Assembly (NCBI GenBank): GCA_947561395.2
Contig: OX387190.1
Coordinates: 27,770,858-27,834,857 of the forward strand
Direction: 5' to 3'
From: Buxus sempervirens
Lineage: Eukaryota > Streptophyta > Magnoliopsida > Buxales > Buxaceae
Length of the DNA: 64,000 nt
The notes under the pieces were generated by a model that was not told the origin of the DNA, did no database searches, and was given only the letters and a program-made list of their open reading frames with translations. Made by a program: the position numbers and the translations under genes. Position 1 is the first letter of the stretch. Each line of letters starts with the position of its first letter. Shown here piece by piece: positions 712 through 58,265 of the stretch.

Positions 712-957
712 GTATCCAACATAGATTGTCAAATATGCATAATTTTGCTTGTATCCGACATAATATGTTGGATACAAAAGATTTTTTTCCGAAATCTTGT
801 CGGATTCTTTGACAAATTTTCTGAAAAAATTTAATTTTTGAAATGATTGTGTTTGTATTTGACATTTTATGTAGGATACAAAGGAATTGTAGTGTATTGG
901 ACCTACATGGCCGGATACACATACAATTATGTGTATCCGACCTTACAAAATTTTGCT
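712..957 (+). repeat. 39-bp-period palindrome array in F1
   Basis: Palindromic units start at 712, 751, about 785 (degenerate), 855, 894 and 933. Starts in each run are 39 bp apart. The clearest unit, at 751-775, has arms GTATCCGAC and ATGTTGGATAC-like; the unit at 894 has GTATTGGAC and GCCGGATAC. The array ends immediately before the TATA box at 957. Decay is heavier than in the solo LTR at 16926. Confidence 0.75.
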
Positions 958-4250: not shown

Positions 4251-4517
4251 AACCGTACTGAGTATGCGGTTTTTATAATCTTGGTCTCAACCGCTCTGTA
4301 TGTGCGGTTGCAACCGCACACACAGCACGGTTCACATCAATGCTTGTTGCGCTGGCGGCCACGTGGCTTCGCGAAGCTTCGGCCGTTAAGCCGCGTGGAC
4401 AGCAATCAATTAAAGCATAACTGAATTGAACCGCCCTGTATATGCGGTTTGGTCAAATTTGTACATGAACCGCACTTTGAGTGGCGGTTGTGTAGAAACC
4501 GCACTGAGTATACGGTT
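4251..4517 (+). repeat. AACCGC/GCGGTT palindrome array in A1
   Basis: Six 21-22 bp palindromes with 6-bp arms AACCGC and GCGGTT start at 4251, 4289, 4312, 4429, 4468 and 4497. Single arm changes occur (AACCGT at 4251; TACGGTT at the end of the last). Several spacings are 38-39 bp or a multiple. The array lies about 200 bp upstream of the TATA box. Confidence 0.8.
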
Positions 4518-4832: not shown

Positions 4833-7800
4833 TAAAGCTCTCTTTCATTTCCAGTCTTCCCTTTTACATTCTAGCAAATCTCTCATCTTCTACCTTTCTG
4901 TAGTGTAAGGCCTTTGTGCATTTTTGCAACCCCAAACCCCTTCTAAAGTACCTTGGAATCCTCTCTAGCCGTAAAACGTGAAGAGAGAGCCTGGGGAAAA
5001 GGAAGGTGGAATGGATCCTCTAGGTTTAGAACCCTCAAATGACGAAAAGCATGCTATATGGTTATTTTGAACCCTTGAATGCTTCTCTGATTTTATTTTA
5101 TATTTGGAGAAGATGTGAATCCATGCTCTCAATAGCCATGGATTCCAACCTTCTCATAGAAATGAGATTTTCCACACCTTCACACTCACTTTTCACTATT
5201 TTCATCAAATAGGCTAGATCTTGGGCTTTCCATGTTCAATATGGAAAATCTGAGGTCCTAGGCCTTAGAATGAGTTTTAGAACTTCATGAGAGGATTTCT
5301 TGTTGATTTTGAGGTTTTGGTCGAATCCACATGCACTGGTTTCCATGTTTCCTCTTCAAAAACCTCAAAACAGGACAGATCTGTGGCCTGTCTTGGAAGA
5401 CTCATAACCTCATCCTCCGGATGAATTTTTGAGTGATTCCAAAGACATGTGATAGATTGGAAAGCCTATTTAATATCTGGAAATTTTCATCCACTTCCAT
5501 GTAGCCAATTTTTGACACCATCTCTTCAAAATTTGTAAGTCAGTTCAGCCCAGATTGCTGAACTTGCCGCTTTGAGGGTGCACTATTTGCTCAGTTTTAA
5601 TCCGTTTCCTATGATTCCAGTTTCTGAGTTTTCTTTGAGAAGTCTATTTTCATTTCCAACTGGTTTCAGCAGATTTCAATCTGTTTTGTGTCTTGGGTGC
5701 TCAGTTGACTCAGAAGTGCTCGCTGGCATAGTCCAGAGCTCATCTGTGGTCTTCTAGGCCTGTTCAAGAGAGCACACAAGTCACATCCGGATAGAGATTG
5801 GTGTGAGGTTTTTTTCTTTGGAAAGATGGCACCACATACTTCCCCCATATCAATTTTCATGGATTTTTATTGAGCCAAACTCCACGAATAGAGCTTTGAA
5901 AATGCCTACTTAACACTTTTTCTGAGTTATAACAGCAGATTTCATATGTGGATTTCTCTCTTGTTTTGGATCGGATTGAGCTGAATTTTCTACTATATAC
6001 TCTAATATATACCAGTTTTCCAATGGCTTTGGTTTCATTTGATTTGTATTTGAATTGGGGGAGTTATGGTTTATCAAAGCTTTCAAGTTCTTTTGACCTA
6101 ATTTCTCCAGATTTGCCTTAGCATGATTTTCTTCATTTTTTACTTTGATTTTCCTTCACTCATGAGGTTTTAGAAGTGATGAATCCACAAAGAGAGCCTA
6201 AGTTCATTAGACTTCTCATGTGGAATGATCACATACATGGTGCTTGTGGTAAGCATCCTTTTGCCCATTTTGTTAGAAAAATGATTCTTAGCATAAGCAA
6301 GCATATGGTAACCGTCTTAGACGGATGAGTGGGGGTGCCTAACACCTTCCCCCGCTCATAAATAATTCCTCGTACCCAATCTCTGGATTTTCCTTGTATT
6401 AGAGCTACTTTGGCTCTATTTGACATTTATGAACCCTTTGGTGTCCATTCACACCTTAAAATGGATGGTGGCGACTCTTATTTTTATCGATCCCCGCGTG
6501 ACGATAATCAGAAGTCATCCGAGATGACGAATCCATGTCTCACACATGCACTTGCTTGTACTATTATGGCAATTACAATTTGGCATTATGGAAAATATAT
6601 TGTGAAAGGACCAACTGAAAATAATGACATTTTAAGGAAACTATATTTAACACATTTGTATGGTGCAAGTGATATAATGTGTTATGATAATTTACGACTT
6701 ACAAAAAGGGCATTTTATAAGCTATGTGAAATCTTACGCGGAAGGGGTGGATTATATGACACAAGGCATATCACTGTAGAAGAATTAGTTGCAATGTTCC
6801 TACATGTCCTTGCCCATGATGTCTAGTTTTGAGTAATTAAGGGTACTTTTATCCGTTTGGGAGAGACAATTAGAAAACATTTTAGTTTTGTTCTAAGGGC
6901 AATGCTCAAACTAATGAAGGATTTCATAAAAGCGACAGATAATGTTGAAAATGATTCTGAAAATGCAAAATGGAAATGGTTTAAGGTAAACAAAAAAATT
7001 GTACACAATACATAGTTACATTAGTTGTTTACAAATTAAGAAAACTAATTTCTTACTCTTTTCCTCAGAATTGCCTTGGAGCTTTAGATGGAACATATAT
7101 CCAAGTAACCGTTCCACTTCAAGATCAAGGTCGATATCAAAATAGAAAGCAAGATATTTCTACGAATGTCTTAGGAGTATGTGACCCCAACATGAAATTT
7201 ATTTATGTATTACCTGGTTGGGAAGGATCAGCTTCAGACTCTAGGGTGCTAAGAAATGCCCCTACTAGATCTTGTCCATTATCTGTTCCCATTGGTACTT
7301 TTTTCAAACCTTAATTATTTGATTTCATGATTATTTTTATGATTTATTTAGTTGCTGATTTGTCCATCGATTATAGGAAAATACTATCTAGTTGATGCAG
7401 GATACACAAATGGTCTTGGTTTTCTAGCTCCATATCGCCAAACTCATTATCACCTTAATTAATGGGTTGTAAGTGGAAATAATCCAAATAACTACAAAGA
7501 GTTATTTAATATTCGCCATTCGATCTTCAGCAAGGAATGTGATTGAAAGAACATTTGGTTTGCTAAAGAAGCAATGGGCCATTTTGAGAACTCCATCATT
7601 CTTTGATGTGAAAACTAAGGTAGTGATTGTGATAAACTTTTCATAAAAAAATTGTAATAGAAATTGATTGTTTAAGTAACATCTTTTTATGCATAAATTT
7701 AGGTGCGGATAATCAATGCTTGTTGTGTTATACACAACTTCATAAGAGACGAGCATCGAGAGATAGATGATAGCCTTTTAAGGAAAGTTGATGAAGAGTT

Positions 7801-9899: not shown

Positions 9900-10041
9900 T
9901 GATCCGACAACTCAAGTCGGATCAGCAGGATTTTATTTGTAGCCGACCACCCTGGTCAGCTACTCTTAGTTTTGTGTGTAGCCGACATCTAAGGTTGGCT
10001 ACAAGTATGTTTTCTTGTAGCCGACACTTCAGGTCGGCTAC
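9900..10041 (+). repeat. 39-bp-period palindrome array with GTAGCCGAC arms
   Basis: Four units start at 9900/9901, 9939, 9978 and 10017, exactly 39 bp apart. Arms are GATCCGAC/GTCGGATC in the first and GTAGCCGAC/GTCGGCTAC in the last, with one or two mismatches in the middle two. Compared with other arrays the T-to-G change in the left arm is matched by A-to-C in the right arm. Confidence 0.85.
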
Positions 10042-10122: not shown

Positions 10123-10147
10123 GGGTTTTCGGGTAACCCGAAAACCC
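10123..10147. repeat. Perfect 25-bp palindrome
   Basis: Arms GGGTTTTCGGGT and ACCCGAAAACCC around a single central A. It lies at the start of the GGGCCC-rich part of F1; a looser equivalent (AATGGGTTTTTGGG...CCCAAACCCATT) occurs in F2 at about 12466. Confidence 0.8.
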
Positions 10148-11050: not shown

Positions 11051-13095
11051 CCCGTGCAACCACGCGCACATGCGGTTCGAGAGGAACCACACTTAAAGTG
11101 TGGTTCTGACCAAACCACACTTCAAGTGCGGTTTCGGAAAATTTCGTCTATAAAAGGGAGCCACAGCCCCCATTGTTCAAGGTTGGTCCCCCCACTCTCT
11201 TCTCTACTTCGTCCCCACCTTGTCCCACAACCAAAAAGCCCCTCCATTGCTCTCCCACCTCTACACCTTGTTCTATTGCCCATTTTACCCCTCAAACCAT
11301 TACTTTTCACCACTTCGAATCACTCGGAACCAAAGGAGGAGCCGAAGTGCTGTCCACATCAACAGGAGAATCCCAATACCTCAAAACAAGAAGGTAATAG
11401 CAAGGTGAGCTTCTCCATCACTTTGTATTTAAAATATATGAAAATCAGACTATTCTGACAAGTTTCTCCTTGAGTTTCTTTTTAGACTTTGATCTTGCTA
11501 TGTTTTTCTAACTCATTTGCTCTCTTTTGCACGCCAAGAGAGACCCCATGGAAGGTGGGGATCTCTACACGAAAAAGGGAGGAGAGTAGTTTCGTAGAAA
11601 TCAAAGGATGCTTAAGTCAACATAACCTTCATATTTGTCGGGTTAACTAATTTTGCTTGTTTATTAAAGAGGGGTCCTGTCCTCTTTGTATCATCTATTG
11701 TACCCCTAATCAACCTATCCCTCTCTCCTTTCTTAGTTAAGTTTACTCGCTTGCATGGTCCATGCTTATCTTTGGCATTCCTGGTTCATTTTCAAGATCC
11801 TTCATCTTGCATGCTAGGTCCCGTACTTACTTTGATTAGCACACACATGTATGTTTTTGTTGTAACACTCACAAGCTCTTTCACCTCTTTTGTATATTTT
11901 CATGTTATAGCGCTTATATGCATGTCACTTGCATCACTACACACCACTTCTCTCATGTCATGTGTAGCATATGTGCATAAACCATGTTGTATAAGCATAC
12001 TGATCATGTCACCAAGGTGCAATGAGATGTTGTCTCACTCTCTGTCATGCCATGCTTCCATGAAATCCTTGAATGATTATATGTCTGCATGTTTAGTATA
12101 ACTTAGCACTATATATGCATGCTTGTGAATGGTTTGAATGAAGGGTGATGAGCCAAGACCTTTCCCATTCGTGGAACACCAAGAAGTGAGAGTTTGAGCT
12201 TAAAATGAGCATTTTTGCAGTTTTGATAAGGTTCCAGAGGCCATGGAGCTGGTAGACATCCCCAAGGAGCAGATGAACCGGTCCGCGCTAGCGTTGCGGA
12301 GATTTTTGAAAATCAGGCCGGAACTGCATACTCAGTGCAGTCAGGCCTGAACCGCATTGGTTCTACAGTTCAGTCCAGACCACATTCCATATGCAGTCCA
12401 TTTTCATAATAAATAAAAAAAGCAATTTTTTAAACCCGATCCGACCCGTTTTAATGCAAATTAAACCCAATGGGTTTTTGGGTCAACCCAAACCCATTTT
12501 GAGACCTTGGGCCCTCCAATGGGGCCCACATACAATCCGGCCCAAACAAAGCCCGTTTCCGTAAATAGGCTAAAGGCCACATGATTAACTGCCCATGGGC
12601 CAAGACCAAGCCCACTGGGCCTTAAAAGTCTTAACACATTTAATTAACTTGCATGTTTAATAAACCCTTAAATCAAAATGACCAAATCCAATAAGGGTTA
12701 CCCAATAACCCTACTGGGCCATGGGCTCAAACCCAACTGGGCATTCCAACAGGGCCCATATCCGACCAACTTAACCAAAAAGATATAGAAAGACAAAAAT
12801 CAAAATAAAAGGGGCCCACACCTTCAGAGGACCCCACCAAACCAAACTAAATACATGCTGAGTTAGGACAATGTGAGATAGTTGACTCAAAACCAGGGAG
12901 ACCCGAGGGACGCATCAAGCCAACGGGCCAAGCCGGGGTGTCTTCAGACTTCCCCGGACGTAATCGAGAACTTAGCCAGATCTCTAATAAACCGTAGACC
13001 AGAAAAATTATGCCCGGATAGGCACCCCTTGTGTCTACCTGCACCTCTCAGACAGTGGCGACTCCGATAGTCCCGAGGCACGCATAATATTTGCA
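11051..13095 (+). mobile_element. LTR-like unit F2
   Basis: Second copy of the F-type unit, directly after F1: palindromes at 11085-11134, TATA box at 11149, pyrimidine-rich leader, long non-coding body, two GGGCCCAC/CCAAC-rich blocks (about 12500 and 12740), then TCTTCAGACTTCCCCGG and CAGTGGCGACTCC at 13053, all in F1 order. Edges are approximate and I could not find a target duplication. F1 and F2 may be two LTRs of a collapsed element or two tandem solo copies. Confidence 0.5.
11085..11155 (+). promoter_or_regulatory. Palindrome pair and TATA box of F2
   Basis: A perfect 21-bp palindrome (AACCACACTT, A, AAGTGTGGTT) at 11085-11105 and a near-perfect one (arms AACCACACTT and AAGTGCGGTT) at 11114-11134 stand 15-45 bp upstream of TATAAAA at 11149-11155. 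Compared with the A-type arm AACCGCACTT the change is made on both arms of the first palindrome. Confidence 0.65.
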
Positions 13096-15782: not shown

Positions 15783-16451
15783 TGGACAGATCTATGCAAA
15801 TCATTCTTGGAAGAGGCCAAATGGTATTATAATGGATATGAACCGACACTTAACGAGTACATAAACAATGGATGGATTTCAAGTTCACGAATAGTCATTC
15901 AAGTGCATGCTTATTTTCTTTTAAGTGAAAATATAACAGAAGTAGCAGTCGAATGCTTAAAGGACTACCCAGATTTCCTACGTTGCTCATCCCTGATTTT
16001 CAGGTTTATCTATGATCTTGGAACTTCAAAGGTACTTCACCAATCCTTTTAGCTTAGAACATACTAATTATTTCTAAAATCATCCCAAAAGTTACTATAT
16101 TCCTTCCTCTAGCTAATAGAATCTTTATTTTGCAAATTAATGCAGGAGGAAATGGAGAGAGGTGATTCTTCGAAATCAGTACAGTGTTACATGCATGAGA
16201 ATAACGTGTCTGAGGAAGCTGCTCATGAACATATCAAACATATAATAGCCCAGATGTGGAAAAAGCTAAATAAATATTTAGCTTACTATTATCGTTTGCC
16301 CCGTTTGTTTATTAGTTCTGTAGTAAATATTGTTCGGATGGCCCAATGTTTGTACCAATTTGGGAATGGGCATGGTAATCCTCGCCAAACCAAGGAACAG
16401 GTGTTGTCTGTACTGCTTGAGCCAATCCCAACTTACAAGGGAATAGACTAG
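15783..16451 (+). pseudogene. Terpene synthase 3' end (last two exons), truncated
   Basis: Exon 15783-16031 (249 bp, the usual size for the penultimate TPS exon) reads WTDLCKSFLEEAKWYYNGY, PTLNEYINNGWISSS and DLGTSK. After a 114-bp GT-AG intron the last exon 16146-16451 reads EEMERGDSSKSVQCYMHE, VSEEAAHEHI and LLEPIPTYKGID-stop. This is the C-terminal part of the class I alpha domain of a plant mono/sesquiterpene synthase. In the NSE/DTE motif (N/D-D-L-x-S/T-x3-E) the first metal-binding residue is Y: it reads Y-D-L-G-T-S-K-E-E. The upstream exons with RRX8W and DDxxD are absent; sequence shared with the right-hand TPS upstream region lies 30 bp before the exon. Both frames are open, but a product could not bind the catalytic magnesium cluster normally. 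TPS-b membership is likely, not certain. Confidence 0.92.
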
Positions 16452-16925: not shown

Positions 16926-19193
16926 TGTAGACACCCCAAATTGCACAGTCAAAATGATCAATAATCATCAAAAATCATTATCTCCTCTGAAACCAGCACA
17001 GAATTTGAGAAAACCATTTTTTTCTTGTATCCGACAACTCAGGTCGGATACAAGTACCTTTCTTCGTATCCGATGGAACATGCCGGATACAAGCAAGCTT
17101 TAGTGTATCCGGCATCATATGCCGGATACATTAAGGCACTTGTGTATCCGGCCTGATATGTCGGATACATAAGTTTTGCTCAAAATTAGGGTTTTCCGAG
17201 AGTTTTCACTTTTTACCATCATATCCTTCATTAAATGAATGGAAATCTCGAAAATAGCCTTAGGGTTAAGGTTGGTGGGCTATAGACATTATGTTGTATC
17301 TACCATCCCACCAACCCTAACCCTAGCCTTTGCCTATAAATAGGAGGCTCCTCCTTAAGCAAATGGCCAACAATTCTTGCCAAGAACTTTTGCCAAGAAG
17401 AGTTCCGAGTGAAGAGGGAAACCGCTGCGGAATTTCTAGATCTAGATCTCTTCTTCTACCTTTCTGTAGAATAAGGCCTTAATGTGTGTATGAAAACCCT
17501 TCCCCGGCTCAAAGTATCTCAAGACTCCCCCTAGCCGTAAAACATTAAGGCGGGATCTAGGAGAAACGAGACTGGGGATTGATCCTAGTGCTAGAACCTC
17601 TCTTGTATAAGCCTTTTGGATCTATGTAAACCGTTTCATATTCAAAGTACCCCAAGATTATCTTGAAGAACCATGTTTAACAGGGAGAGAGAACTAAAGG
17701 AAACGATAATGGAACGGAACCCTAGGTTGTTTTTAGAACCCTATTTTGATTGATATGAATGCATGTTATCTTTGCTATGTTGTTGGAATGATTTTTACGC
17801 CTACACATACATGGCACGTGATTTTGGCGGGATAGGCTCATATTTCGAATTTATCGCATTTATTGTGATAAATCTGAAATAAATAGCCCCAAGCAATTCT
17901 GGGATGTTTTAAATGATTTCCAAAAGATTTTGATTCATCTTACACGAATTATACACACTTTATCACAGTTTTGAATTGGTTTTATTCAAAAAAAGGCTTA
18001 ACTTGACAGCAACTGTACCCCTACTTCGGACACTCATAACTTCATCGTCCGGATGAATTTTGGAGTGATTCCAGAACCATGGGAAAGGTGAGGCTGTCTA
18101 GTTTGTGCTTACAAAATTTCATTAATTTCTATCAAGCAGATTTTGGACACCTCTCTGTCGAAGTTTATTGGTCAGTTCAGGTTTAAATACGGAACTTGTC
18201 ACTTCGACTAAGCGCCATGTGTTCGTTTTAAATCCGATTCGAGTTATTTTTGTTTCTGGGCACTCCTTTATGAGTCTATTTTCAAATCCAGTTGTTTTCA
18301 TAAATGTTTGACTAGATTTGCGTTGTTGGTAACAGATTTACTCAGAACTGCTCATCAGCATTTTTCTGGGTAAATCTGTGATCTTCGGGGCCTGTTCGGG
18401 AGACCACCCAAGGCACATCCGAATGAATTTTTGTATGAGGCTAGTTTCGTTAGAAATATGGCCATACAGACTTCAATCACACCATTTTCATGGATTTTTA
18501 TGAAGCAGATTTTTCTAGGTGATTTTCCAAGCTTGCATGCTTGCCACTTTTGATTTTCTCCAGCAGCAACTTTAAAAGAGCCATAACTTTTAGAATTTCA
18601 ACCGAATTTAATTGAAATTTTGTATGAGACTATTATTTACCATAATCTTTCAAATTTATTTGGTTTGGTTCAATTTAAAATTGAATTTGAATGATTTCAA
18701 GACAAATGGCATTATCTTTTGCCGAATTTTCCGGATTTAACTCAACTTGGTTTTGTGCAACTTTTGCTTTGATTTCTATCTATTTGTGATATTCCAGAAA
18801 TGATATTGACAATAAAGAGGATCTGGAATCCATTTGGATCTTCATGTGAAGATATCATACATTTGTCTTTTTTCAATATTTTAATGATTTTAGCAAGCTT
18901 TCTCACTTTTTTGCATGAACAAACACTTGGCAACCACCTTGTGTGGGTGAATGGGGGTGCCTAACACCTTTCCCCATTCATAATCTAATCCCCTTACCCA
19001 TCTCTGGATTTGATTTTCAAGTAGGGTTATTTTTACTCTAGAATTTGTCTTTTAGCTATTTTTGCTTATTTTTAATCTTTTGGTGTCCATTCACACCTCT
19101 AAAAATTGAATGGTGGTGACTCTCCCACTTTTTAAGTTGAGCCCATGTGTTGACGGAGGGGAATCATCCCGGTGATTTTTCCCATGTCTCACA
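16926..19193 (+). mobile_element. Solo LTR C1
   Basis: TGTAGACACCCC at the start, CATGTCTCACA at the end, perfect 5-bp duplication ACATT (16921-16925, 19194-19198). Length 2268 bp. Order of parts: palindrome array (17027-17168), TATAAATAG (17335), leader starting AGCAAATGGCC, CTAGCCGTAAAAC block (17531), GGGGGTGCCTAACACC (18953) and TGGTGGTGACTC near 19110. It is non-coding. The TPS pseudogene lies just upstream. Confidence 0.93.
17027..17168 (+). repeat. 39-bp-period palindrome array in C1 (best preserved)
   Basis: Four 25-bp palindromes start at 17027, 17066, 17105 and 17144, exactly 39 bp apart, so each is a 25-bp palindrome plus a 14-bp spacer. Arms: GTATCCGAC/GTCGGATAC, GTATCCGAT/GCCGGATAC, GTATCCGGC/GCCGGATAC, GTATCCGGC/GTCGGATAC. 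The 7-bp centres differ. The last unit ends about 170 bp before the TATA box at 17335. Confidence 0.92.
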
Positions 19194-22243: not shown

Positions 22244-24667
22244 TGTGAGACATGGAAAAATCACCTAGATGACTTCCTCATCATCACGCGGGGTTTACAA
22301 ATGTTTGGAATCGCCACCATTCAAGTTAAAGTGTGAATGGACACCAAAAGGATCATAACAAGATAAAATAGAGTTTAAAGCAACTCTAATACATGGTCAA
22401 ATCCAGAGATTGGGTAAGGGGATTAGGTTATGAGTAGGGGAAGGTGTTAGGCACCCCCGCTCATCTATATAAAATGATTGCCATATGTTGTTCATGCTTA
22501 AAAGAATGCTTGCTAATAAAACAATCAAAAAGTACTTAAAAAAAACAAACACATGTGTGATTCCTCCATATGAGTAGCCCAATAAAACCTGGACTCTCTC
22601 TATGGATATATCACCTCTAGGACTTCATGATTAAGTGAAAATCAGAGTAAAGCTTGAATAAAATCAAGCCAAAGCAAATCCGGAAAAATCCAAAAGAGAT
22701 GAAGCTATACTAGCTTGAAAACTTCAATCAACCATAAATCCTTCGATTTAAACTCCAATCAAACAAAACCAAAACCATTAGAAAGCTGGTATGAAGTAGA
22801 ACACTCAGTATAAAATTCAAATTAATCTGATTAAAAACGAGGAAGAAACACTCAAGCAAATCTGCTGTTGAAAACCAGAAAAAGTGATGAGTGACCAACT
22901 TTGAAACTCTATTCGTGGAGATTGGCTCCATATAAATCCTTGAAAACTCACATGGAATAAGTATGAGGTGTCATCTTTCGAATGAAATAGGCCTCACACG
23001 AAACTCCATCTATTTGCGACTTGTATGACCTCTCGAACATGCCTAGAGGATCATAGATTAACTCAGAATTCTGCTACAGCGCAGCTCTGAGTTAATCAAA
23101 CACATGAGACACAAATCAAAGTGAAAACTCTTGAAACCAGTTGGATTTGAAAATAGATTCACAGAGGAAAACACAGCAATTAAAATCACTTGAATCTGAG
23201 TTAAAATGAGCAAATGGTGCTCGGTCAAAGCAGCAAGTTCAGTAATCTGATTTGAACTGACCTGCCGACTTTGATCAAATGGTATAAAAAATCCACTCCA
23301 TGTAAATTGCTGAAATTTTTCAGACAAAAACTAGACATATCCACCTATCACATGTCTTTGGAATCACTCAAAAATTCATCCGTATGATGAAGTTATGAGT
23401 GCTCTAAGACAGGTTACAGGTGCTGCCCAGGTTTGGAAAATCTGAGTGAAATCAAGCCAAGACAGTGAGTGTGTGTTCTTGATTCGATTAAAATGATTTG
23501 AAATCACTAGGAGAAACTCATGGAGTCCTAAGAGTTCACTCTAAGACCATGGATCTCAGATTTGCCATATTGAGCATGGGGAATCCGAGATCCAAGCCTA
23601 TTCTTAACAAAAGCATGTGAGGTGTGTGTGTTCATGGTGGAAATCACAATTTTAGGAGAAAACAAAGATGTAATGCTTTAGAGCATAGGTCCTAGTGTCT
23701 TCACTAGATCCACAATAGCATCATTCCAGAAAACAACTACCACACAACAAGATAATCAATATGCAAGCTCTTCATCACAAGATGGTTCAAATCCTAGAAG
23801 ATCCATTCCAACATCTGTTTCCCAAGCTCTCTCTTCACGTTTTACGGCTAGAGAGGATTCTTAGGTACTTTAGGAGTGGTTTGGGTTTGCACACACACTC
23901 AATGGCCTTACACTATAGAAAGGTAGAAGATGAGAGTGCTAGACTGTAATAAAAATGAAGAATAGAAGGAAGTAAACTTACCTTAGTAGCCTTGAGACAG
24001 AAATTCGGCAGAGCTTCACTTCTTCTTCTAGAGCCTCCAAGCTTCAAATCAGCAGTCATTTGCAAGAGGAGGACCTTTCTATTGATAGGCACAGCCAAGG
24101 GTATAAAAGACCCAAGGGTAGGCCAATAAATGCTTCTAGATTACTCCAATTCAAATTAAATGTATGAATTGGGTAATTCTACAAGTTTCGGAGAGTAAAA
24201 TAGGGAGATCAGGTCTCCTAGAGAGAGGTAATGTGCGTAAATAAGGCTCAGATCTCGAGTCTTTCGCAAATGACCAAATTGATAGAAACCGCATACACAG
24301 TGCGGTTTAGAGCAAATCGCTTTTTATTTGCGGTTGCAGCACAAATCTCCCCAAACCGCACATACAGGGCGGTCACAATTCAGTTATGAGCTAATGATTG
24401 CTGCCAACGTGGCCTAACGGCCTGACAGCCACGTGGCAGCCCACTTGCGCGCACGCAAGAAGCATGAACCAAAACCGAACTACGTGTGTGGTCGCAACTG
24501 CATACACAGTGCGGTCGAAACAAAATGGCCAAAAACCGCATACACAGTGCGGTCAGCACCTTTTTTTGAAGATTTTTGAGTTTTTGACAACCGTCAGAGC
24601 TCAAATAAATCATTTAAAAATTCTTTTATTGCCCTCTCATATTGTAATGCAATTTGGGGTGTCTACA
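22244..24667 (-). mobile_element. LTR A2
   Basis: Minus orientation: begins (right edge) TGTAGACACCCC at 24667, ends CATGTCTCACA at 22244. It carries an AACCGC-type palindrome array (24287-24556) and a decayed TATA box (TATCAATAG, near 24080). Flanked on both sides by CCTTG (22239-22243, 24668-24672). Confidence 0.9.
24287..24556 (-). repeat. AACCGC/GCGGTT palindrome array in A2
   Basis: Palindromes such as AACCGC-N9-GCGGTT at 24287-24307, and further units around 24318-24340, 24354-24374, 24474-24515 and 24535-24553, several with one-arm substitutions. Confidence 0.75.
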
Positions 24668-25049
24668 CCTTGCAACCCTCTTCACTGGAATTGGAACCAA
24701 TTAACAGCGGAGAGCAAGAAGACTCACAAATTGCACTTTCCGAGATAGTGTCAAATTAGTCATGACTTGCAAGGATTTCAAAAGGGTGATTTTCTTTTTG
24801 GAAAAGAATTTGTTTAGAGGATTTGCTGAAAAGTACATAACTTTAAGGGGCAGATCCTCTTCTTGCGTCTCACAGAGCACTTGTGGCTATGAAGTGAGAC
24901 TCGAGCAAATTTTTGAAACAAAAGTTGGTAAAGTGGCAATCCTTACAATCCACAACTAATTTAAACACAAATCTCTTGACAGAGCTGGGAAAAATCTTTT
25001 GAAAATTCATTTTTTGGTGCTGACTGCACATAGACTGCGGTTTTGCTTC

Positions 25050-25117
25050 AACCGCATTTGTTTTGCGGTTGACACAGAACCGCACTGATTGTGCGGTTTT
25101 CTAGGGCTTATTTAAAA
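25050..25117 (+). promoter_or_regulatory. Palindrome pair and TATA-like box before the PMD gene
   Basis: Two perfect-arm 21-bp palindromes (AACCGC-N9-GCGGTT) at 25050-25070 and 25078-25098 stand directly before TTATTTAAAA (25108-25117) and a C/T-rich leader. The arrangement copies that of the LTR promoters but in the direction of the antisense PMD gene. Confidence 0.6.
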
Positions 25118-26835: not shown

Positions 26836-26957
26836 GTAACCAAAATCAAAGTTCGGGTAAAAGTTCTTCTCTTGGTATCCGAAAATAGATTTCGGATACA
26901 CTTTTGTTTATTTGTATCCGAAATATTATTTCGGATACAAAGGTTTTTGTTTGTATC
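26836..26957 (+). repeat. 39-bp-period palindrome array in B1
   Basis: Units start at 26836 (degenerate), 26875, 26914 and 26953, each 39 bp apart. Arms of the two middle units are GTATCCGAAA/TTTCGGATAC-like. The fourth unit, GTATCCGAC/GTCGGATAC, is cut by LTR B2 after its first five bases and finishes at 31201-31220. Confidence 0.88.
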
Positions 26958-27031
26958 TGTAAACACCCCAAATTACACTGCATAAGAGAATGAATAATTG
27001 GCCGAAATCATAGAAAGGAAGTCTTTCTTTT

Positions 27032-27173
27032 GTATCTGAAATCAAATTTCGGATAAAGGTTAATCTCTTTGTATCCGAAATCTATTTTCAAATACACATT
27101 TGTCTATTTGTATCCGAAATATAATTTCAGATACAAAGAGACTTGTTTGTATCCGACCTGTTTTGTTAGATAC
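27032..27173 (+). repeat. 39-bp-period palindrome array in B2
   Basis: Units start at 27032, 27071, 27110 and 27149, exactly 39 bp apart. Arms are mostly GTATCCGAAA and TTTCNGATAC; the last is GTATCCGAC / GTTAGATAC. Several arms carry single mutations, so the array is older or under weaker constraint than C1. Confidence 0.88.
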
Positions 27174-27758
27174 TAATGTTTTGCTCCAAATTAGAAATCT
27201 CGCGAGTTTTCACTTGTTTTTACTGTTTAAGAAGTGAGGATTCCCACATTTAGCCTTCGGAATTAACCCTATACTCCCAAGTCCATACTTTAGGGTTAAG
27301 TTGGAGGGTTCTAGACACATGTTTGTGTCTACCATTAGGGCTGCATTCCTTTAAGTTTGCCCTAATCCTTGCCTATAAATAGAGGGCCTCCCCTCAAGCA
27401 AATGGTCAGAAAGTGGAGATTGAAGAGCTCCAAGTGAAGAAGGGAACCCCTGCCTCTCTAGTTTTAGAACTCTCGGTAAGCCTTGAACTCTTTTCTTTTC
27501 TAGTTTTAATTTCTAGGATTATTCTGTCTTCTACTTTCTTCTGTAGAATAAGGCTTATGTGTGTGTTTGTTACCCAAACCTACTTCCAAGTACCTCAAGA
27601 CTATTCTCTAGCCGTAAAACGTGAAGAGAGAGCTAGGGGAAAGGGAGACAAGTGGATCCGTAGGGCAGACACCCATATGTGATAATCTTAGAAATGTATA
27701 GTTTTAATGTTTGGTTTAGGTTGTGTGATGATTTATTGATGAAATATGGAGGAATACC

Positions 27759-30166
27759 TGTAGACACCCCAAATTGCACCTCAATATAAGAGAATACCTA
27801 AGAAGAGCTTCAAAAGTCTTATTTGAGCCTTGACATATGTCAAACACTCAAGAACTCTCAAAATTGGTGCCAACCGTACTGAGTATACGGTTTTTATAAT
27901 TTTGATCTCAACTGCTCTGTATGTGCGGTTGCAACCGCACACACAGCACGGTTCAAGTCCATGCTTGTTGCGCTGGCGGCCATGTGGCTTCGCGAAGCTT
28001 CGGCCGTTGAGCCGCGTGGACAGCAATCAATTAAAGCATAACTGAATTGAACCGCCCTGTATATGCGGTTTGGTTAAATTTGTATATGAACCGCACTTTA
28101 AGTAACGGTTGTGTAGAAACCGCACTGAGTATACGGTTTTGGCTGTTTCGGGGATTTGCGAAATGGCTCGATCTCTGAGCCTTATTTACGCATATTACCT
28201 CTCTCTTGGGGACTTGAACTCCCTATTTCACCCTCCTAAACTTGCTGAATTACTCCAATTCAAGCCTTGGAGGAGAATTGGAATAATCTAGAAGGCCTTT
28301 TTGGCCTACTCTTGGGACTCTTCTACCCTTGACTTGGCCTATAAATAGAGGGGTCCTCCTCTTGCAAATGGCTGACAATCTGAAGCTTAGAAGCTCTGCA
28401 AGAAGAAGGAGAACCTCTGCTGGATTGTCTACTCAACTGTTCAAGCTACTAAGGTAAAGCCCATTTGAGTTATTACTTCCTTTTTATGTTCTAGCAATCT
28501 CTCATCTTCTACCTTTCTGTAGTGTAAGGCCTTGGTGTTGTTTGTAGCCCCAAACCCCTTCTAAAGTACCTGGGAATCCTCTCTAGCCATAAAACGTGAA
28601 GAGAGAGCCTGGGGAAAAGGAAGGTGGAATGGATCCTCTAGGTTTAGAACCCTCAAATGATGAAAAGCATGTTATATGGTTATTTTGAACCCTTGAATGC
28701 TTCTCTGATTTATTTTACATTTGGAGAAGATGTGAATCCATGCTCTCAATAGCCATGGATTCCAACTTTCTCGTAGAAATGTGATTTTCCACATCTTCAC
28801 ACCCACTTGTCACTGTTTTTGCAAAGATAGGCTAGATCTTGGATTTCCATGTTCAATACGGAAAATCTGAGATCATCGGCCTTAAAAAGAGTTTTAGAAC
28901 TTCATGAGAAAGTATTTTGTGGATTTTTGAGGTTTTGGTCGAATCCACATGCACACATGCACTGGTTTCCATGTTTCCTCTTCAAAAACTTCAAAACAGG
29001 GCAGATCTGTGGCCTGTCGTGGAATGCTTATAACTTCATCCTCCGGATGAATTTTTGAGTGATTCCAAAGACATGTGATAGATGGATGTATCTACTTAAT
29101 ATCTGGAAATTTTCGTCCACTTCCATGTAGCCAATTTTTGACACCATCACTTCAAAGTTTGTGACAGTTCAACTCAGATTGCTGAACTTGCCACTTCGAT
29201 GGTGCACTATTTGCTCAGTTTTAATCCGTTTCATGTGATTCTAGTTTCCGAGTTTTCTTTGAGAAGTCTATTTTCATTTCCAACTGGTTTCAGCAGATTT
29301 CAATCTGTTTTGTGCCTTGGATGTTCAATTGACTCAGAGGTGCTCGCTGGCATAGTCCAGAGCTCATCTGTGGTCTTTTAGGCCTATTCAAGAGAGCACA
29401 CAAGTCACATCCGGATAGAGATTGGTGTGTGATTTTTTTCTTTGGAAAGATGACATTACATACTTCCTCCATACCAATTTTCATGGATTTTTATTGAGCC
29501 AAACTCCACGAATAGAGCTTTGAAAATGCCTACTTAACGCTTTTTCTGAGTTATAACAGTAGATTTCATATATGGATTTCTCTTTCATTTTGAATCAGAT
29601 TGAGTTGAAATTTTTACTGTATACTCTACTATATACCAGTTTTCAAATGGCTTTAGTTTCATTTGATTTGTATTTAAATTGAATGAGTTATGGTTTATCA
29701 AAGCTTTCAAGCTCTTTTGACCTAATTTCTCCAGATTGGCCTTAGCTTGATTTTCTTCATTTTTACTTTGATTTCACTTCACTCATGAAGTTTTAGAAGT
29801 GGTGAATCCACAAAGAGAGCCTAAGTTCATTGGGCTTCTCATGTGGAATGGTCACACACATTGTGCTTGTTAAGCACCTCTTAGTTCATTTTACTAACAA
29901 ATGATTTAAAGCATAAGCAAGCATGTGGTAACCGTCTTAGACGGATGACTGTGGGTGCCTAACACCTTCCCCCGCTCATAAAAAAATTCCCCGTACCCAA
30001 TCTCTGGATTTTCCTTGTATTAGAGCTACTTTGGCTCTATTTGACATCTATGAACCTTTTGGTGTCCATTCACACCTTAAAATGGATGGTGGCGACTCTT
30101 AACATTTTACCGATCCCCGCGTGACGATATCGGAAGTCATCCAAGATGACAAATCCATGTCTCACA
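27759..30166 (+). mobile_element. Solo LTR A3 (innermost)
   Basis: TGTAGACACCCC to CATGTCTCACA, perfect duplication ATACC (27754-27758, 30167-30171). 2408 bp, nearly collinear with A1 including six AACCGC-type palindromes (27872-28138), TATAAATAG at 28340 and CTAGCCATAAAACGTG at 28582. It sits inside B2, which sits inside B1. Confidence 0.94.
27872..28138 (+). repeat. AACCGC/GCGGTT palindrome array in A3
   Basis: The same six-unit layout as A1, with a first unit AACCGTACT..ATACGGTT now perfect on both arms, where A1 has one arm changed. Confidence 0.8.
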
Positions 30167-30384
30167 ATACCATAGATCTATGCTATTCATAGCATTAAAT
30201 CTCATTTTTCTCATATATTTTGATTTTTCACATTGTTTTCTCCCTTTTTATGTTTTTTGATGTTTTTAGTCATTTGGGCTAAGATCTTCGATCTTCCATT
30301 GTCCATATGGTAGATCTAGGATTAGAAGCCTTCTAGTAATCTCTAGGATTTCATGTGGTGGTTTTTGAGTCATTTTTGGTTTTT

Positions 30385-30710: not shown

Positions 30711-31753
30711 TTTATATTTTTTCCTAGATTTCAAGGATTTAATTTAAAGCCATATTTTCGGAGTTTTTATTTTGGATTTGTTTTCTTTTGATTTCAGTCA
30801 ATCATTAAGTCCAAGAAATGGTTTTTGTTTTCATAAAGAAGGATCCAGAATTAATTGGATCATTCACATGGAAATAAGCTATACATTCTTTTTTTCCTTT
30901 TGTTTTGATTTTTATTAGCAAGCATTTTTTATAGCATGAACAACACTTGGCAACCGCCCTGTGTGGATGAATAGGGGTGCCTAATACCTTCCCCTGTTCA
31001 TAATCTAATCCCCTTACCATATCTGGATTTTTATTTTAAAGTAGAGTTATTTTTACTCTAGTTTTGCCTTTTTTGCTTTATTTGATGATTTTGGTATCCA
31101 TTCACACCTTAAAATTGAATGGTGGCAACTCCTCCCTTCTATGAATCCCATGTGATGATAGGAAAGTCACTAGATTGATTTTTCCATGTCTCATAGTATC
31201 CGACCTGAGTTGTCGGATACTAATGTTTGTTGCAAATTGGAAAATCCCTAGAGTTTTCACTTATTTACTATTATACCTCTGTCTGAGAAGTGGGAATTCC
31301 AGAATTTAGCCTTAGGGTTAAGTTGGAGGATTCTAGACACATTTTTGTGTCTACCATTAGGGCTCCCTTAGCCCTAGCTCTTGCTTATAAATAGGGGGCC
31401 TCTTCTCAAGCAAAGGGCTGAGAATTGAAAGTTAGGAAAGCTCCAAGAGAAAAAGGGAACCCCTGCCTCTTTGCTTGCTCAAATCCAGGTAAGCTTTCTT
31501 CCTCTTTTATTTTTCTGTTTTTAAATTCTAGGGTTAGTTTGATCTTCTTCCTATCTGTAGAATACAGCCTACTTTGTGTTTGTACCCAAACCTGTCTTTA
31601 AGTACCTCAAGACTACTCTCTAGCCGTAAAACGTGGGAGAGAGCTAGGGGAAAGGGGAACAGGTGGATCCGTAGGATAGACCCCTATGTATTGTAATCAT
31701 CTCTTTTTCTTATTGTAATGCTTTGTTTATGATATGTGACTGTTTATTTCTGT

Positions 31754-33842: not shown

Positions 33843-36276
33843 TGTGAGACATGGAAAAATCACCTAGACGACTTCCTCATCATCATGCAGGGTTTACAAA
33901 TGTTTGGAGTCGCCACCATTTAAGTTAAGGTGTAAATGGACACCAAAGGGATCATAAAAGAGATAAATAGAGCTAAAAGTAGCTCTAATTCATGGTCAAA
34001 TCCAGAGATCAGGTAAAGGGATTGGTTATGAGGAAGGGAAGGTGTTAGGCACCCCCACTCATCCATACAAGACGGTTGCCATATGCTGTCATGCTTAAAA
34101 AAAATGCTTGCTAACAAAACGATCAAAAAGTGCTTGAAAGAAAACAAACACATGTGTAATTCTTCCATATGAATAGCCCAATAAAATCTAGACTCTCTCT
34201 ACGGATATATCACCTCTAGGACTTCATGATTAAGTGAAAATTAAGATAAGACTTGAAGAATATCAAAACAACGAAATCTAAAAAAACAATTCAATAGTAA
34301 GCAAATCAAGCTTAGAAAACTCACCCATTCATAAATCCTTCAATCCAAATTCAGTTTGAGTGAAACCAAAGCCACTGGAATGCTGGTATGAATTAGAAGA
34401 CTCAGTAAGAAATTCAGCTCAATCTGATTTAAAATGAGAGAGCACTTCCCAATCAAATCCACTGTTGTAAATTTGCAAAAGCGACGATTGACCAACTTTG
34501 AAACTCTATTCGTGGAGATTGGCTCCATATAAATCCTTGAAAACTCGCATGGAATAAGTATGAGGTGTCATCTTTCGAATCAAATAGGCCTCACACGAAA
34601 CTCCATCTATTTGCGACTTGTATAACCTCTCGAACATGCCTAGAGGATCATAGATTAACTCAAAATTCTGCTACAGAGCAGCTCTGAGTCAATCAAACAC
34701 ACGAGACACAAATCAAATTGAAAACTCTTGAAACCAGTTGGATTTGAAAATAGATTCACAGAGGAAAACACAGCAATTAAAATCACTTGAATCTGAGTTA
34801 AAATGAGCAAATGGTGCTCGATCAAAGTAGCAAGTTCAATAATCTGATCTGAACTAACCTGCCGACTTTGATAAGATGGTATCAAAAATCCACTCCATGT
34901 AAATTGCTGAAATTTTATAGACAAAAACTAGACATATCCACCAATCACATGTCTTTGGAATCACTCAAAAATTCATCCGTATGATGAAGTTATGAGTGCT
35001 CTAAGACAGGCCACAGGTGCTGCCCAGGTTTGGAAAATCTGAGTGAAATCAAGCCAAGACAATGAGTGTGTGTTCTTGATTTGATTAAAATGATTTGAAA
35101 TCACTAGGAGAAACTCATGGAGTCCTAAGAGTTCACTCTAAGGCCATGGATCTCAGATTTGCCATATTGAGTGTGGGGAATCCGAGATCCAGACCTATTC
35201 TTAACAAAAGCAAGTGAGGTGTGTGTGTTCATGGTAGAAATCAGAATTTTAGGAGAAAACAAAGACATAATGCTATAGAGCATAGGTGCTAGTGTCTTCT
35301 CCAGATCCACAATAACATCATTCCAAAAAACAACTACCATACAACAAGATAATCAATATGCAAGCTCTTCATCACAAGATGGTTCTAATCCTAGAAGATC
35401 CATTCCAAAATCCATTTCCCAAAGCTTTCTCTTCACGTTTTACGGCTAGAGAGGATTCTTAGGTACTTTAGGAGTGGTTTGGGTTTGCACACACACTCAA
35501 TGGCTTTACACTACAGAAAGGTAGAAGATGAGAGTGCTGGAATATAATAAAAATGAAGAAGAGAAGCAAATAGTCTTACCTTAGTAGCTTAAGAGCCTTG
35601 AGACATCAATTCGGCAGAGCTTCACTTCTTCTTCTAGAGCCTCCAAGCGTCAAATCAGCAGCCATTTGCAAGAGGAGGACTCCTCTATTTAGAGGCACAG
35701 CCAAAGGTATAAAAGACCCAAGGGTAGGCCAATAAATGCTTCTAGATTACTCCAATTCAAATTAAAGGTATGAATTGGGGTAATTCTACAAGTTTCGGAG
35801 GGTAAAATAGGGAGATCAAGTCTCCCAGAGAGAGGTAATGTGCGTAAATAAGGCTTAGATCTCGAGTCTTTTCGCAAATGACCAAATTGACAGAAACCGC
35901 ATACACAGTGCGGTTTAGAGCAAACCGCTTTTTGTTTGCGGTTGCAGCACAAATCTCCCCAAACCGCACATACAAGGCGGTCACAATTTAGTTACGCGCT
36001 AATGATTACTGCCAATGTGTTCTAACGGCTTGACAGCCACGTGGCAGCCCATTTGCGCGCACACGAGAAGCATGAACCAAAACCGCACTGTGTGTGCGGT
36101 CGCAACCGCATACACAATGCGGTCGAAACAAAATGGCAAAAAACCGCATACACAGTGCGGTTAGCGCCTTTTTTTGAAGATTTTTGAGTTTTTGACAACT
36201 ATCAGAGCTCAAATAAATCATTTAAAAATTCATTTTATTGCCCTCTCATATTGTAGTAGAATTTGGGGTGTCTACA
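33843..36276 (-). mobile_element. LTR A4
   Basis: Minus orientation, TGTAGACACCCC-type end at 36276 and CATGTCTCACA end at 33843. It has an AACCGC-type array at 35895-36162 and a decayed TATA (TCTAAATAG near 35690). Immediate flanks CCAAT and CCTTA do not match, so it is not a simple solo LTR; it pairs best with A2. Confidence 0.88.
35895..36162 (-). repeat. AACCGC/GCGGTT palindrome array in A4
   Basis: First unit 35895-35915 and last unit 36142-36162 have intact AACCGC and GCGGTT arms, with several between. Layout equals A2. Confidence 0.78.
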
Positions 36277-43721: not shown

Positions 43722-43863
43722 GTATCCGACATGTCAGGTCGGATACATAAGCACCTTAATGTATCCGACATATGATGTCGGATACACTCAAGGCTGCTTG
43801 TATCCGACAACTTATGTCGGATACGAAGAGAAGTGCTTGTATCCGACCTGAGTTGTCGGATAC
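43722..43863 (-). repeat. 39-bp-period palindrome array in C2
   Basis: Four units start at 43722, 43761, 43800 and 43839, exactly 39 bp apart; all have fully complementary GTATCCGAC and GTCGGATAC arms except that the first right arm is preceded by AG. Centres differ: ATGTCAG, ATATGAT, AACTTAT, CTGAGTT. Confidence 0.94.
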
Positions 43864-46410: not shown

Positions 46411-46677
46411 AACCGCATACACAGTGCGGTTTCCACAGAACCGTCACTCATGTGCGGTTTCTATGCAAATACACCTCAACCGCACATACAGGGCGGTTTC
46501 AATTCAGTTATGCTCGCCATGATTGCTGTCGACGTGGCTCAACGGCCGAAGCTTTCGGAAGCCACGTAGCAACTCACGCGAGAAGCATGAACCTCAACCG
46601 TGCTGTGTGTGCGGTCGAAACCGCGCATACAGGGCGGTTCAGACCAAATTAACCAAAACCGCACATATACTATGGTT
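46411..46677 (-). repeat. AACCGC/GCGGTT palindrome array in A5
   Basis: Units at 46411-46431, 46439-46460, 46479-46499, 46597-46618, 46619-46638 and 46657-46677; the last has lost its right arm (TATGGTT). Confidence 0.78.
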
Positions 46678-46721
46678 AGCACCTTTTTGGTTGGTTTTGA
46701 GCCTTAGTTGCACAGGCCAGG

Positions 46722-55510: not shown

Positions 55511-58265
55511 TGTAAGACATGGGAAAAATCACCGGAATGATCATCCCTCCGTCAATACACGGGGCTCGAAATAAAATTTGGGAGAGTCGCCACCATTCAG
55601 AATTTTGGGATGAGAATGGACACCAAAATATTCAAAAATCATCAAAAAGTGTAAAAAGGCAAATTCTAGGGTAAAAATAACCCTACTTGAAAATCAAATC
55701 CAGAGATGGGTAAGGGGATTAGATTATGAACGGGGGAAGGTGTTAGGCACCCCCATTCATCCACACGAAGTGGTAGCCAAGTGTATGTTCATGCAAAAAT
55801 AAGAAAGCTTGCTACAATCATAGAAAACCTTGAAAAAGGACCAATGTATGATATTTTCACATGAAGATCTAAATGGATTCTAGATCCTCTCTTATGTCAA
55901 TATCATTTCTGGAATATCACAAAAAGATGGAAATCAAAGTAAAGGTTGCACAAAACCAAGTCGAGGCAAATCCGGGAAATTTGGTAAAAAGTATGCCATT
56001 TGCCTTGAAATCATTCAAATACAATTTTAAATCAAATCAAACCAAATCCATTTTGAAATATTATAGTAAATAAGGGTTTCCTGCAAAATTTCAATCCATT
56101 CTAATAAAAATCCTAGGAGTTAGGCTCCTTGAAAGTTGCTGCTGGGGATATTTAAAAGTGATGAGTGGGCAACTTTGGAAAATCACCTAGAAAAATCCAC
56201 TCCACAAAAACCCACGAAATTTGGTGTGATTGAAGTCTGTATGGCCATCTTTCAAAATAAACTAGCCTCATACAAAAATCCCTTCGGATGTGCCTTGGGT
56301 GATCTCCCGAACAGGCCCCAAAGATCACAGATTTACCCAGAAAAATGCCATTGAGCAGTTCTGAGTAAATCGGCTACCAATAACTCAAATGGAATCCAAA
56401 AATTATGAAACCAACTGGATTTGAAAATAGACTCATAAAGGAATACTCAGAAACAAAAATCACTCGAATCGGACTTAAAACGAACACATGACGCTCCGTC
56501 GAAGTGACAAGTTCTGTATTTGAACCTGAACTGTCTACTTAACTTCGACAGAGAGGTGTCAAAAATCCGTTCGATGGAAATTTATGAAATTTGGTGGACA
56601 TAAACTAGACAGCCTCACCTTTCCCATGGTTCTAGAATCACTCCAAAATTCATCTGGACGATGAAGTTATGAGTGTCCGAAGTAAGGGTACAGGTGCTGT
56701 CCAGTTAGGCCCTTTTTGAGTAAAACCGACTCAACTGTGATAAAGTGTGTGAGATTCGTGTGAGATAAATCCAAAACCTTTGAAAAACATTTAAAACATT
56801 CCAGAATTTGATTGAGGCCATTTATTGGAGATTTATCACAATGAATGTAATAAATCCCCAAATGTGAGCCTATTTGCCAAAAAAAAGTGCTATGTACGTG
56901 CAAGCTTGAAAAAAACATACAAGATCAATAGAACAACATAGCATGCATATATCTCCATCAAAATGAGGTTCTAAAATAGCCTAGGGTTCCGTTCCATTAT
57001 CGTTTCCCTCTGTTCTCTCTCCCCGTTAAACACGGTTCTTCAAGATAATCAAGGGTACTTTGAATATGAAATGGTTTGCAATCAAACAAAAGGCCTTACG
57101 CTACATAGTTTCTAGCACTAGGGTCAATCCCCAGTCTCGTTTCTCCTAGATTCCGCCTCCACGTTTTACGGCTAGGGGGAGTCTCGAGATACTTTGAGCC
57201 GGGGAAGGATTTTCACACACAAAGAAGGCTTTACACTACAGAAAGGTAGAAGAAGAGATCTAGATCTAGGAATGTAAATACAGAAATTAAAGAGAGGTTT
57301 GAGGCTTACCTGGATTCTGGAAGCACTCCTGCAGCGATTTCCTTCTTCTCTTGGAGTTCTTCTTTGCGAGAATTCAAAACAAGAGTTGATTGCCATTTGC
57401 TTGAGGAGGAGCCTCCTATTTATAGGCAAAGGCTAGGGTTAGGGTTGGTGAGATTGGTAGACACAACATAATGTCTATAGCCCACCAACCTTAACCCTAA
57501 GGCTATTTCCGAGATTTCCCCTCATTTAATAAGGGATATGATGGTAAAAGTGAAAAGCTCTCGGAAAACCCTAATTTTGAGCAAAACTAGCGTAACACAA
57601 GTACCTTAATGTATCCGGTCTATGATGCCAGATACACTGAGGTCTACTTGTATCCGGCATTTTTCACCGGATACAAAGAAGGACACTTGTATCCGGCCTG
57701 AGTTGCCAGATACAAGGAAAAAAGCCTTTTTTTTTAATTTTAACACAGGCAATACTTATTTACATGTAATATCGTTTAAGTAAATGGACATTTACTTAAG
57801 ATATTACATGTAAATAAGCAAACACCCCCCATTTGAATCCATTAAAAATAGTTCCAGACCCAAATTCCAAGTGAATAAAAAGTCAACTTTCCAGTTCTAG
57901 GCAAAATTCCGATTTTTCAGGTCTAGAAAAAAAGGTTTAATATGTTAAAACCATGGTATTCGTCAAGATTTAAAATCTCAAAAAATTCATTTATGCAATA
58001 ACATTGCTAAAAACCTGATTACCGGGAAAAATTATCTTGAAATCTTGCTTTAAAAAATATTTCATTTTCTGGGGTCAAAAGTCAACAAAATTCAACCAGA
58101 AAAAGTTTGACTTTGCACAAAAGATAGAATTTGGTCTTTTCCTTTACGGCTTTGGATTCAAATGGATTAAGTATCTCAAACCCAATGCAAAGAATTGAAA
58201 ATTCCAATAAAATATTTCTCTCCTTCAAGATTTATCAAAAATCGTGCAATTTTGGGGTGTCTACA
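55511..58265 (-). mobile_element. Solo LTR C3 in CACTA, chimeric U3
   Basis: Perfect duplication GTCAC (55506-55510, 58266-58270). Minus orientation, 2755 bp. The body is C-type (TATAAATAG at 57417-57425 minus; CACGTTTTACGGCTAG at 57160; palindrome array 57611-57713), but its 5' about 520 bp (57745-58265) matches A5 instead of C1/C2. Confidence 0.93.
57611..57713 (-). repeat. 39-bp-period palindrome array in C3
   Basis: Three units start at 57611, 57650 and 57689, exactly 39 bp apart. Arms GTATCCGGT/GCCAGATAC, GTATCCGGC/ACCGGATAC, GTATCCGGC/GCCAGATAC. A fourth unit expected near 57572 is deleted. Confidence 0.88.

Follow-up and report, generated by a model that had tools for sequence, protein, structure and literature searches.

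Palindrome arrays in the LTRs of the window

The region analyzed here (hereafter, the window) is a 64,000-nucleotide stretch of the Buxus sempervirens genome (contig OX387190.1, positions 27,770,858 to 27,834,857) in which long terminal repeats (LTRs), some of them nested, carry arrays of palindromes (Table 1). The LTRs of the window start with TG and end with CA or TA, and 8 of the 10 that were checked stand as single LTRs flanked by a perfect 5-bp target duplication, and thus represent solo LTRs; the two without a perfect duplication are B1 and D2. Most of the arrays are located in the U3 of LTRs that start with TGTAGACACC or TGTAAACACC; a literature search with the LTR start string returned unrelated papers among the matches listed. 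The window also contains a copia-type retrotransposon (47695-50739, minus strand; RVT_2, SH3-like, Pol_BBD and gag matches), pieces of two host genes, namely, the PMI1 C-terminal domain (2361-3098, minus strand) and a terpene synthase C-terminal domain (16113-16448), and CCGGCGG palindromes with 38-, 61- and 84-bp repeats (51193-51381 and 59882-60188), which we take to be, probably, CACTA subterminal repeats. A fragment resembling the A-type PMD2 described below (33369-33854; 66% over 163 aligned residues) adjoins LTR D2, for which no target duplication was found.

Table 1. Palindrome arrays of the window: position, strand and context.
Array	Coordinates	Strand	Context
C1, 4 palindromes, 39-bp step	17027..17168	+	U3 of solo LTR C1 (16926-19193)
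C2, 4 palindromes, 39-bp step	43722..43863	-	LTR C2 (37690-43965), other DNA interrupting
C3, 3 palindromes, 39-bp step	57611..57713	-	LTR C3 (55511-58265)
B1, units 1-3 and first 5 bp of unit 4	26836..26957	+	Upstream of nested LTR B2
B1, remaining 20 bp of unit 4 and second GTATC target duplication copy	31196..31220	+	
B2, 4 palindromes, 39-bp step	27032..27173	+	LTR B2 (26958-31195), LTR A2 interrupting
9900 array, 4 palindromes with GTAGCC/TGATCC arms, 39-bp step	9900..10041	+	
F1a, 2 palindromes, 39-bp step, first degenerate	712..775	+	LTR-like start at 140
F1 second array, 3 units, 39-bp step	855..957	+	Last unit without right arm, runs into TATA-like box
A1, AACCGC palindromes (CCG-N11-CGG; one N12)	4251..4517	+	U3 of solo LTR A1 (4138-6544)
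A2, AACCGC palindromes	27872..28138	+	U3 of solo LTR A2 (27759-30166)
D1, AACCGC palindromes	24287..24554	-	U3 of solo LTR D1 (22244-24667)
D2, AACCGC palindromes	35895..36162	-	U3 of LTR D2 (33843-36276)
E1, AACCGC palindromes	46411..46639	-	U3 of solo LTR E1 (44390-47257)
2 palindromes of the AACCACACTT type, 28-bp step	11085..11133	+	Upstream of TATAAAAG box
2 AACCGC palindromes, 28-bp step	25048..25098		

The initial annotation of the window described 25-bp palindromes following each other at an exact 39-bp step in LTR promoters. All 28 unit positions listed there could be read, and the step is exact within each array; the units themselves vary in quality. Those at 712, 894, 17066, 26836 and 27149 are in place but degenerate (6-7 of 11 arm pairs), whereas the unit at 933 keeps its position but has lost its right arm and is no longer a palindrome (1 of 11 pairs). 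The unit at 26953 is present but split by the nested LTR B2 (target duplication GTATC), with the remainder at 31196-31220, and the C3 array consists of three units, the fourth being absent as a result of a 20-bp deletion. Placement in an LTR promoter holds for C1-C3, B1, B2 and F1a; no LTR was demonstrated around the 9900 array, which aligns with C2 over 143 columns, with no alignment to C2 in its surroundings. A separate palindrome, GGGTTTTCGGGTAACCCGAAAACCC, with all 11 arm pairs (10123-10147), follows the final unit of the 9900 array at a distance of 106 bp, and a CGG half-site directly precedes the LTR-like start of F1a (121-150).

Palindromes with at least 9 of 11 arm pairs number 62 in the window, compared with a mean of 16 (maximum 27) in 20 dinucleotide shuffles. 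Eight pairs of palindromes in the window are spaced by exactly 39 bp; summed over all distances from 25 to 59, the shuffles yielded no pair (18 of 20) or a single one (2 of 20).

The insertion of B2 in unit 4 of the B1 array, and of A2 in B2, implies that B1 unit 4 ends at 31220. The B2 insertion is located exactly within a palindrome (26953-26957 / 31196-31220); plant LTR retrotransposons have been reported to favor palindromes weakly (PMC6911290).

A second arm type and the common geometry

The A, D and E LTRs, which belong to the same superfamily as the C and B LTRs judging by the same 5' end and similar TATA surroundings, carry AACCGC..GCGGTT palindromes in place of the GTATCCG type. These arrays come in addition to those of the initial annotation, as do the two-palindrome arrays at 11085-11133 and 25048-25098 and a further array around position 20. 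Degenerate palindromes resembling AACTGC/GCAGTT types were noticed by eye at 12300-12400.

In the GTATCCG and AACCGC types alike, CCG and CGG are exactly 11 bases apart. There are 44 occurrences of CCG-N11-CGG in the window, 40 of them in arrays by our own reading of the list, compared with at most 16 for every other spacing from 0 to 60. The CGG-N22-CCG arrangement that makes the 39-bp step occurs 20 times, against no more than 12 at other spacings. CGG-N11-CCG, which makes the 28-bp step, occurs 12 times against a background of up to 11, with about half of the occurrences in arrays, so that the 28-bp step rests on the unit lists and not on this count. The difference between the two steps, 11 bp, corresponds to roughly one DNA turn. 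The half-site appears in different versions by family: TATCCGG, TATCCGAC, TATCCGAA and AACCGC. The plant factor motifs considered, ARF (TGTCGG), DREB (CCGAC) and MYB (CNGTT), were dropped because none fits all of these versions. Three exact array patterns were not found among viral contigs, in a search from which records of the window's own genome were possibly excluded.

Genome-wide spacing of the palindromes

Across the 676.5 Mb of genome searched, GTATCCG..CGGATAC palindromes (pattern GTATCCGN{2,31}CGGATAC) occur 30,971 times, with 47 matches for the control; those listed are 25 bp long, save for two 38-bp composites. Spacers of 1-31 bp between palindromes (pattern CGGATACN{1,31}GTATCCG) were found 18,607 times (control 25), and 16,882 of these are exactly 14 bp long (control 0). 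Among the 50 distinct spacer places listed, 34 are of 14 bp, 2 (one LTR pair) are of 13 bp, and the other 14 are 27-bp composites that have one end in common with a 14-bp spacer. The free variation of spacing that was to count against the initial annotation was thus not observed on the genome scale. The other types are less numerous: 369 for GTATCCGAA (control 0), 797 for GTAGCCGAC with a gap of 0-30 (control 12), and 7,151 for AACCGCN{0,30}GCGGTT (control 1,634), a set mixed with CACTA-like AACCGCCGG repeats.

Arrays at internal promoters of full-length elements

On the contig labeled C1, pairs of LTR arrays lie 20.1-20.7 kb apart, with more arrays in between. These full-length relatives are approximately 20-kb Tat/Ogre-like Ty3 elements, with pieces that include gag with a G-patch and antisense ORFs with PMD/DUF7745. 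The pol ORF at L013 encompasses RVT_1, RT_RNaseH and RVT_3, with weak integrase matches at the cut end, and accordingly combines a reverse transcriptase with two RNase H domains, a feature of Tat elements (PMC9289625); giant size, long LTRs, TG..CA ends and the 5-bp duplication were found as well. At L019, a TGGCGACTC.. stretch follows the LTR end, the position considered for the primer site against tRNA-Arg that is expected in the Tat/Ogre group. The pol query had no match at L034 or L037. In a subset of seven antisense ORFs compared with Pfam, five matched PMD and/or DUF7745 at E <1e-7 and none matched TRP28 (PF04195).

Arrays with the 39-bp step are located upstream of antisense PMD1, and two-unit arrays with the same step upstream of antisense PMD2 (L009-L012); one more 39-bp array lies in the leader upstream of gag (L013, one copy). 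The distance from the array edge to the PMD1 start codon is 128-131 bp at six of seven loci, representing three families; the piece at the seventh, L010, lacks the start. A TATA-like box follows the PMD1 array in the printed loci of the GG and B families and is not clear in the A locus. A distant PMD1-like stretch (26-32% identity) after a 39-bp array with mixed GTAG/GTAT half-sites (L027:962-2929) suggests that this arrangement may predate the families studied here. The GTAGCC-type regions (L027-L030, L032, L033) yielded mixed arrays and no clean element.

Half-sites of LTR and internal arrays

If a single factor per family recognizes the arrays, AACCGC in the LTR should be accompanied by AACCGC in internal promoters; we fixed this prediction before an A-type element was examined. 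The prediction held: in the A-type element (L017-L019), AACCGC arrays are present in the LTR, the leader, the PMD1 and PMD2 promoters and a fifth place, and a second A-type copy (L023) likewise carries AACCGC arrays. The fifth array, of AACCG units at steps 28, 39 and 28, is located past the PMD1 end (L017:578-693) and has no known gene associated with it. In B-type elements (L024-L026), the PMD1, PMD2 and LTR arrays have mostly CCGAA and some CCGAC arms. Among 20 A-type PMD1 promoters chosen from 144 matches, 19 contain four AACCG palindromes at steps 28, 41 and 28; the exception, L047, has none within 351 bp. With the B-type PMD1 query, all 20 promoters chosen from 150 matches contain TATCC arrays at step 39 (one 78), with GAAA, GACA, GGC or GGT arms.

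The half-site class (AACCG or TATCC) is the same in LTR and internal arrays in all 17 readable elements (4 GG, from L009-L012 with LTR units including L031; 4 A; 3 B; and 6 others), an agreement that, the families being few and related, may reflect a single switch. An LTR start was found in 8 of the 18 LTR-side regions fetched; 2 had matches but no LTR start and 8 had no matches. Membership of arrays in one element was assigned from distance and orientation; in L026, the LTR is about 450 bp from its PMD1 array. Within the TATCC class, we compared the two bases inside CCG across 10 elements, with one GG element standing for four: the LTR-PMD1 overlap is 0.608 within and 0.288 between elements, a difference reached in 14 of 20,000 permutations, although this figure overstates independence because the families are few and related. 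Among the five GA-type elements, the overlap is 0.40 within and 0.49 between elements, so that the LTR-PMD1 match is at the family level. This GA-type result, the B-type LTRs with some CCGAC arms and the mixed GTAGCC arrays count against the operator proposal made below.

PMD1 and PMD2 are under purifying selection (dN/dS 0.07-0.33). For the two parts of PMD1, dN/dS between GG and A is 0.14 and 0.18, with silent sites near saturation, and the value within GG is 0.33; for PMD2, the values within GG are 0.07 and 0.10, and the GG-A comparison is saturated. Pol identity is 85% for GG-A (L038) and 87.5% over 850 residues for GG-B (L035). The corresponding values are 65-75% and 71-73% for PMD1 part 1, 61% and 72-74% for PMD1 part 2, and 52% and 70% for PMD2, with 44-45% between A and B PMD2. 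The divergence of PMD2 is greatest where the half-sites differ most, which, with three families, is a weak pointer to this protein. A PDB sequence search with PMD1 produced nothing up to E 1, that is, no solved relative.

Conservation and pairing of the units

When families are compared, arms resemble each other more closely than spacers do, contrary to the second outcome that was to count against the initial annotation (arm complementarity no better than spacer similarity): between C1/C2 and B1/B2, arms are 74-84% and spacers 38-45% identical, and the centers of C and B units are 17-50% identical. Conservation in the C/B arrays is thus conservation in the arms. The alignment of C1, C2 and B2 contains no indels in the 142-bp array; in the flanks, indels number 8 per 251 aligned bases (C1-B2), 6 per 253 (C2-B2) and 2 per 281 (C1-C2). 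In the comparison of A1 with D1 and D2, the first array region has no indels in 84 bases and the second has 2 in 91, with 7 in 476 and 4 in 479 in the A/D LTR flanks. The absence of indels from the C/B array speaks for the operator proposal made below, and two of these comparisons count against it: the second A/D array region has no fewer indels than the flanks, and C1-B2 substitutions are no less frequent in the array (56/142) than in the flanks (85/251).

Among 222 distinct TATCC/TAGCC units, pairing is 73% at position 1, 86-98% at positions 2-7 (of which 3-7 are conditioned, given that the units were chosen by their core), 81% at position 8, 69% at position 9 and 23-46% at positions 10-12. 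Alternative Watson-Crick pairs are common at positions 4, 8 and 9.

Interpretation of the arrays

Starting from the established geometry, spacing and promoter position of the arrays, the concerted difference of half-sites between families and the purifying selection on the PMD proteins, we propose, with a little less than even confidence, that the arrays are operators for a dimeric DNA-binding factor common to the promoters of these Tat/Ogre-like elements and co-evolving with them by family. The operators would act as upstream activating or anti-silencing sites. Each palindrome would bind a two-fold symmetric dimer through half-sites in which CCG and its distance to the dyad are constant (CCG-N11-CGG) and the remaining bases vary by family. 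Several dimers, aligned at 39- or 28-bp steps, would place the LTR and the two antisense genes, PMD1 and PMD2, under joint control, and a further array is present in the gag leader. One version across the promoters of an element suggests that the factor would act in trans and co-evolve with the family. From these sequence patterns, we infer protein binding, the dimeric state, activation or anti-silencing and the candidate protein. The functional module envisaged in the initial annotation, in the form of a bound-protein array, is in this sense favored by the fixed dyad and spacing, the presence of arrays at internal promoters and the half-sites that change together.

In this reading, the factor would be encoded by the element itself, PMD2 or PMD1 being the first candidates. 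The more specific proposal, which we advance only tentatively, is that one of the antisense PMD proteins would, in dimeric form, occupy the palindromes at the LTR, in the gag leader and at the promoters of both antisense PMD genes, and that the families would change protein and operators together, making their regulons private. The same geometry (CCG-N11-CGG, 14-bp spacers, arrays at PMD1 promoters) is compatible with binding by dimers of host transcription factors, with each family recruiting its own member of a single factor family in which the CCG-N11-CGG dyad is retained, and repeated boxes for host factors are indeed known in the U3 of plant LTRs. Variable U3 motifs of plant LTRs, along with stress response, have also been reported (PMC10794571). 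We consider a host factor a somewhat less probable alternative: the internal antisense promoters carry the LTR version in each family, for which a self-encoded factor is the simpler explanation, and none of the plant factor motifs considered fits all versions.

Readings without a DNA-binding protein appear much less probable. Paired arms with alternative Watson-Crick pairs could form RNA hairpins, a series of which was considered in the initial annotation, in the 3' U3 of genomic RNA or in antisense transcripts, with a role in packaging, dimerization or small RNA. The one-sided changes in raw copies of PMD1 promoters are in line with this, with more G-U than A-C pairs (35 vs 18 for TATCC; 52 vs 1 for AACCG), as are the cells of distinct units (66 vs 33). 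However, when counted as distinct events, such changes show no G-U excess in TATCC PMD1 promoters (11 G-U vs 12 A-C) or in 27 window units (15 vs 13); the A family is represented by a small count (4 vs 1). We read the raw-copy excess as inherited changes, so that the test weakly disfavors hairpins. Moreover, the CCG-CGG distance and the step do not vary, whereas the loop of a hairpin would be free to do so, and in two of the three families printed, GG and B, the PMD1 arrays precede the TATA-like box. Altogether, we consider hairpins improbable. Mutational upkeep without function, via template switching or conversion between arms and units, would explain the concerted change of a family's arms among units and on both sides, but we hold it to be quite unlikely. 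Unit-specific centers and spacers hold their position across LTRs while the arms alone change together, so that the continuing homogenization suggested in the initial annotation finds little support, and arrays kilobases apart in one element belong to one class. If, finally, the arrays were an inherited relic, alike through the recent common descent of the repeats alone, substitutions no fewer than in the flanks would be unsurprising; the LTRs of the initial annotation are homologous, and hence their six arrays are not independent. Yet arms outlast spacers, the 9900 array aligns with C2 when nothing around it does, and arrays are placed at internal promoters, which makes a mere relic highly improbable in our estimation.

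Comparison with known systems

Repeated factor sites at promoters or ends are familiar from the U3 enhancer boxes of tobacco Tnt1 and Tto1, the subterminal repeats of CACTA elements and the sites of yeast Gal4. The Tnt1/Tto1 boxes are shorter than the palindromes of the window, and in Gal4 sites (CGG-N11-CCG), the half-sites face the opposite way from CCG-N11-CGG; to our knowledge, the Gal4 protein class is not known from plants. Comparable palindrome arrays were not described among the literature search results listed, which covered open-licence PMC papers. Three components of the proposal are already known, namely, motif arrays that co-evolve with an anti-silencing protein (VANDAL), antisense accessory genes (Retand) and PMD in Gypsy elements.

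Like the elements described here, Ogre/Tat Gypsy elements of plants have two RNase H domains, long LTRs, giant size, PMD and G-patch, and PMD is a frequent extra domain of plant Gypsy elements; palindrome arrays are not mentioned in the consulted sections of that report (PMC9289625). In the Tat-related Gypsy element Retand, the region from pol to the 3' LTR similarly contains tandem repeats and accessory genes in antisense orientation, for which a regulatory role has been suggested, but these genes encode the TRP28 domain instead of PMD, and the LTRs are 315-1,194 bp long compared with 2.3-2.9 kb here; promoter palindromes are not mentioned in the sections consulted (PMC11963269). In Arabidopsis, the host PMD proteins MAIN and MAIL1 are required for genes with a common promoter motif and are tied to transposon silencing (PMC7156037, PMC9899485). 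These are host genes, however, and their DOWN motif, CATGCAGTTT, differs from the palindromes.

In VANDAL elements, the element-encoded anti-silencing protein VANC binds short motifs that are repeated in several non-coding parts of each element; versions of the motif vary from one related family to another and co-evolve with the protein (PMC5735166). In the Buxus elements, likewise, motif clusters are found in several non-coding parts, in a version that depends on the family. VANDALs differ in being DNA transposons with short, non-palindromic YAGTATTAC/T motifs in irregular, changing repeat number (PMC5735166); the Buxus arrays belong to an LTR retrotransposon and are built from palindromes whose dyad and steps are fixed, with PMD1 and PMD2 as candidates for their binder. 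With each family predicting its own half-site within the fixed CCG-N11-CGG frame, the proposal is directly testable. If correct, it would reveal a self-encoded regulon in an LTR retrotransposon, give a job to the antisense PMD genes, whose domain recurs in host proteins involved in the silencing of transposons, and provide, beside VANC, an example of motif-protein co-evolution from a retrotransposon.
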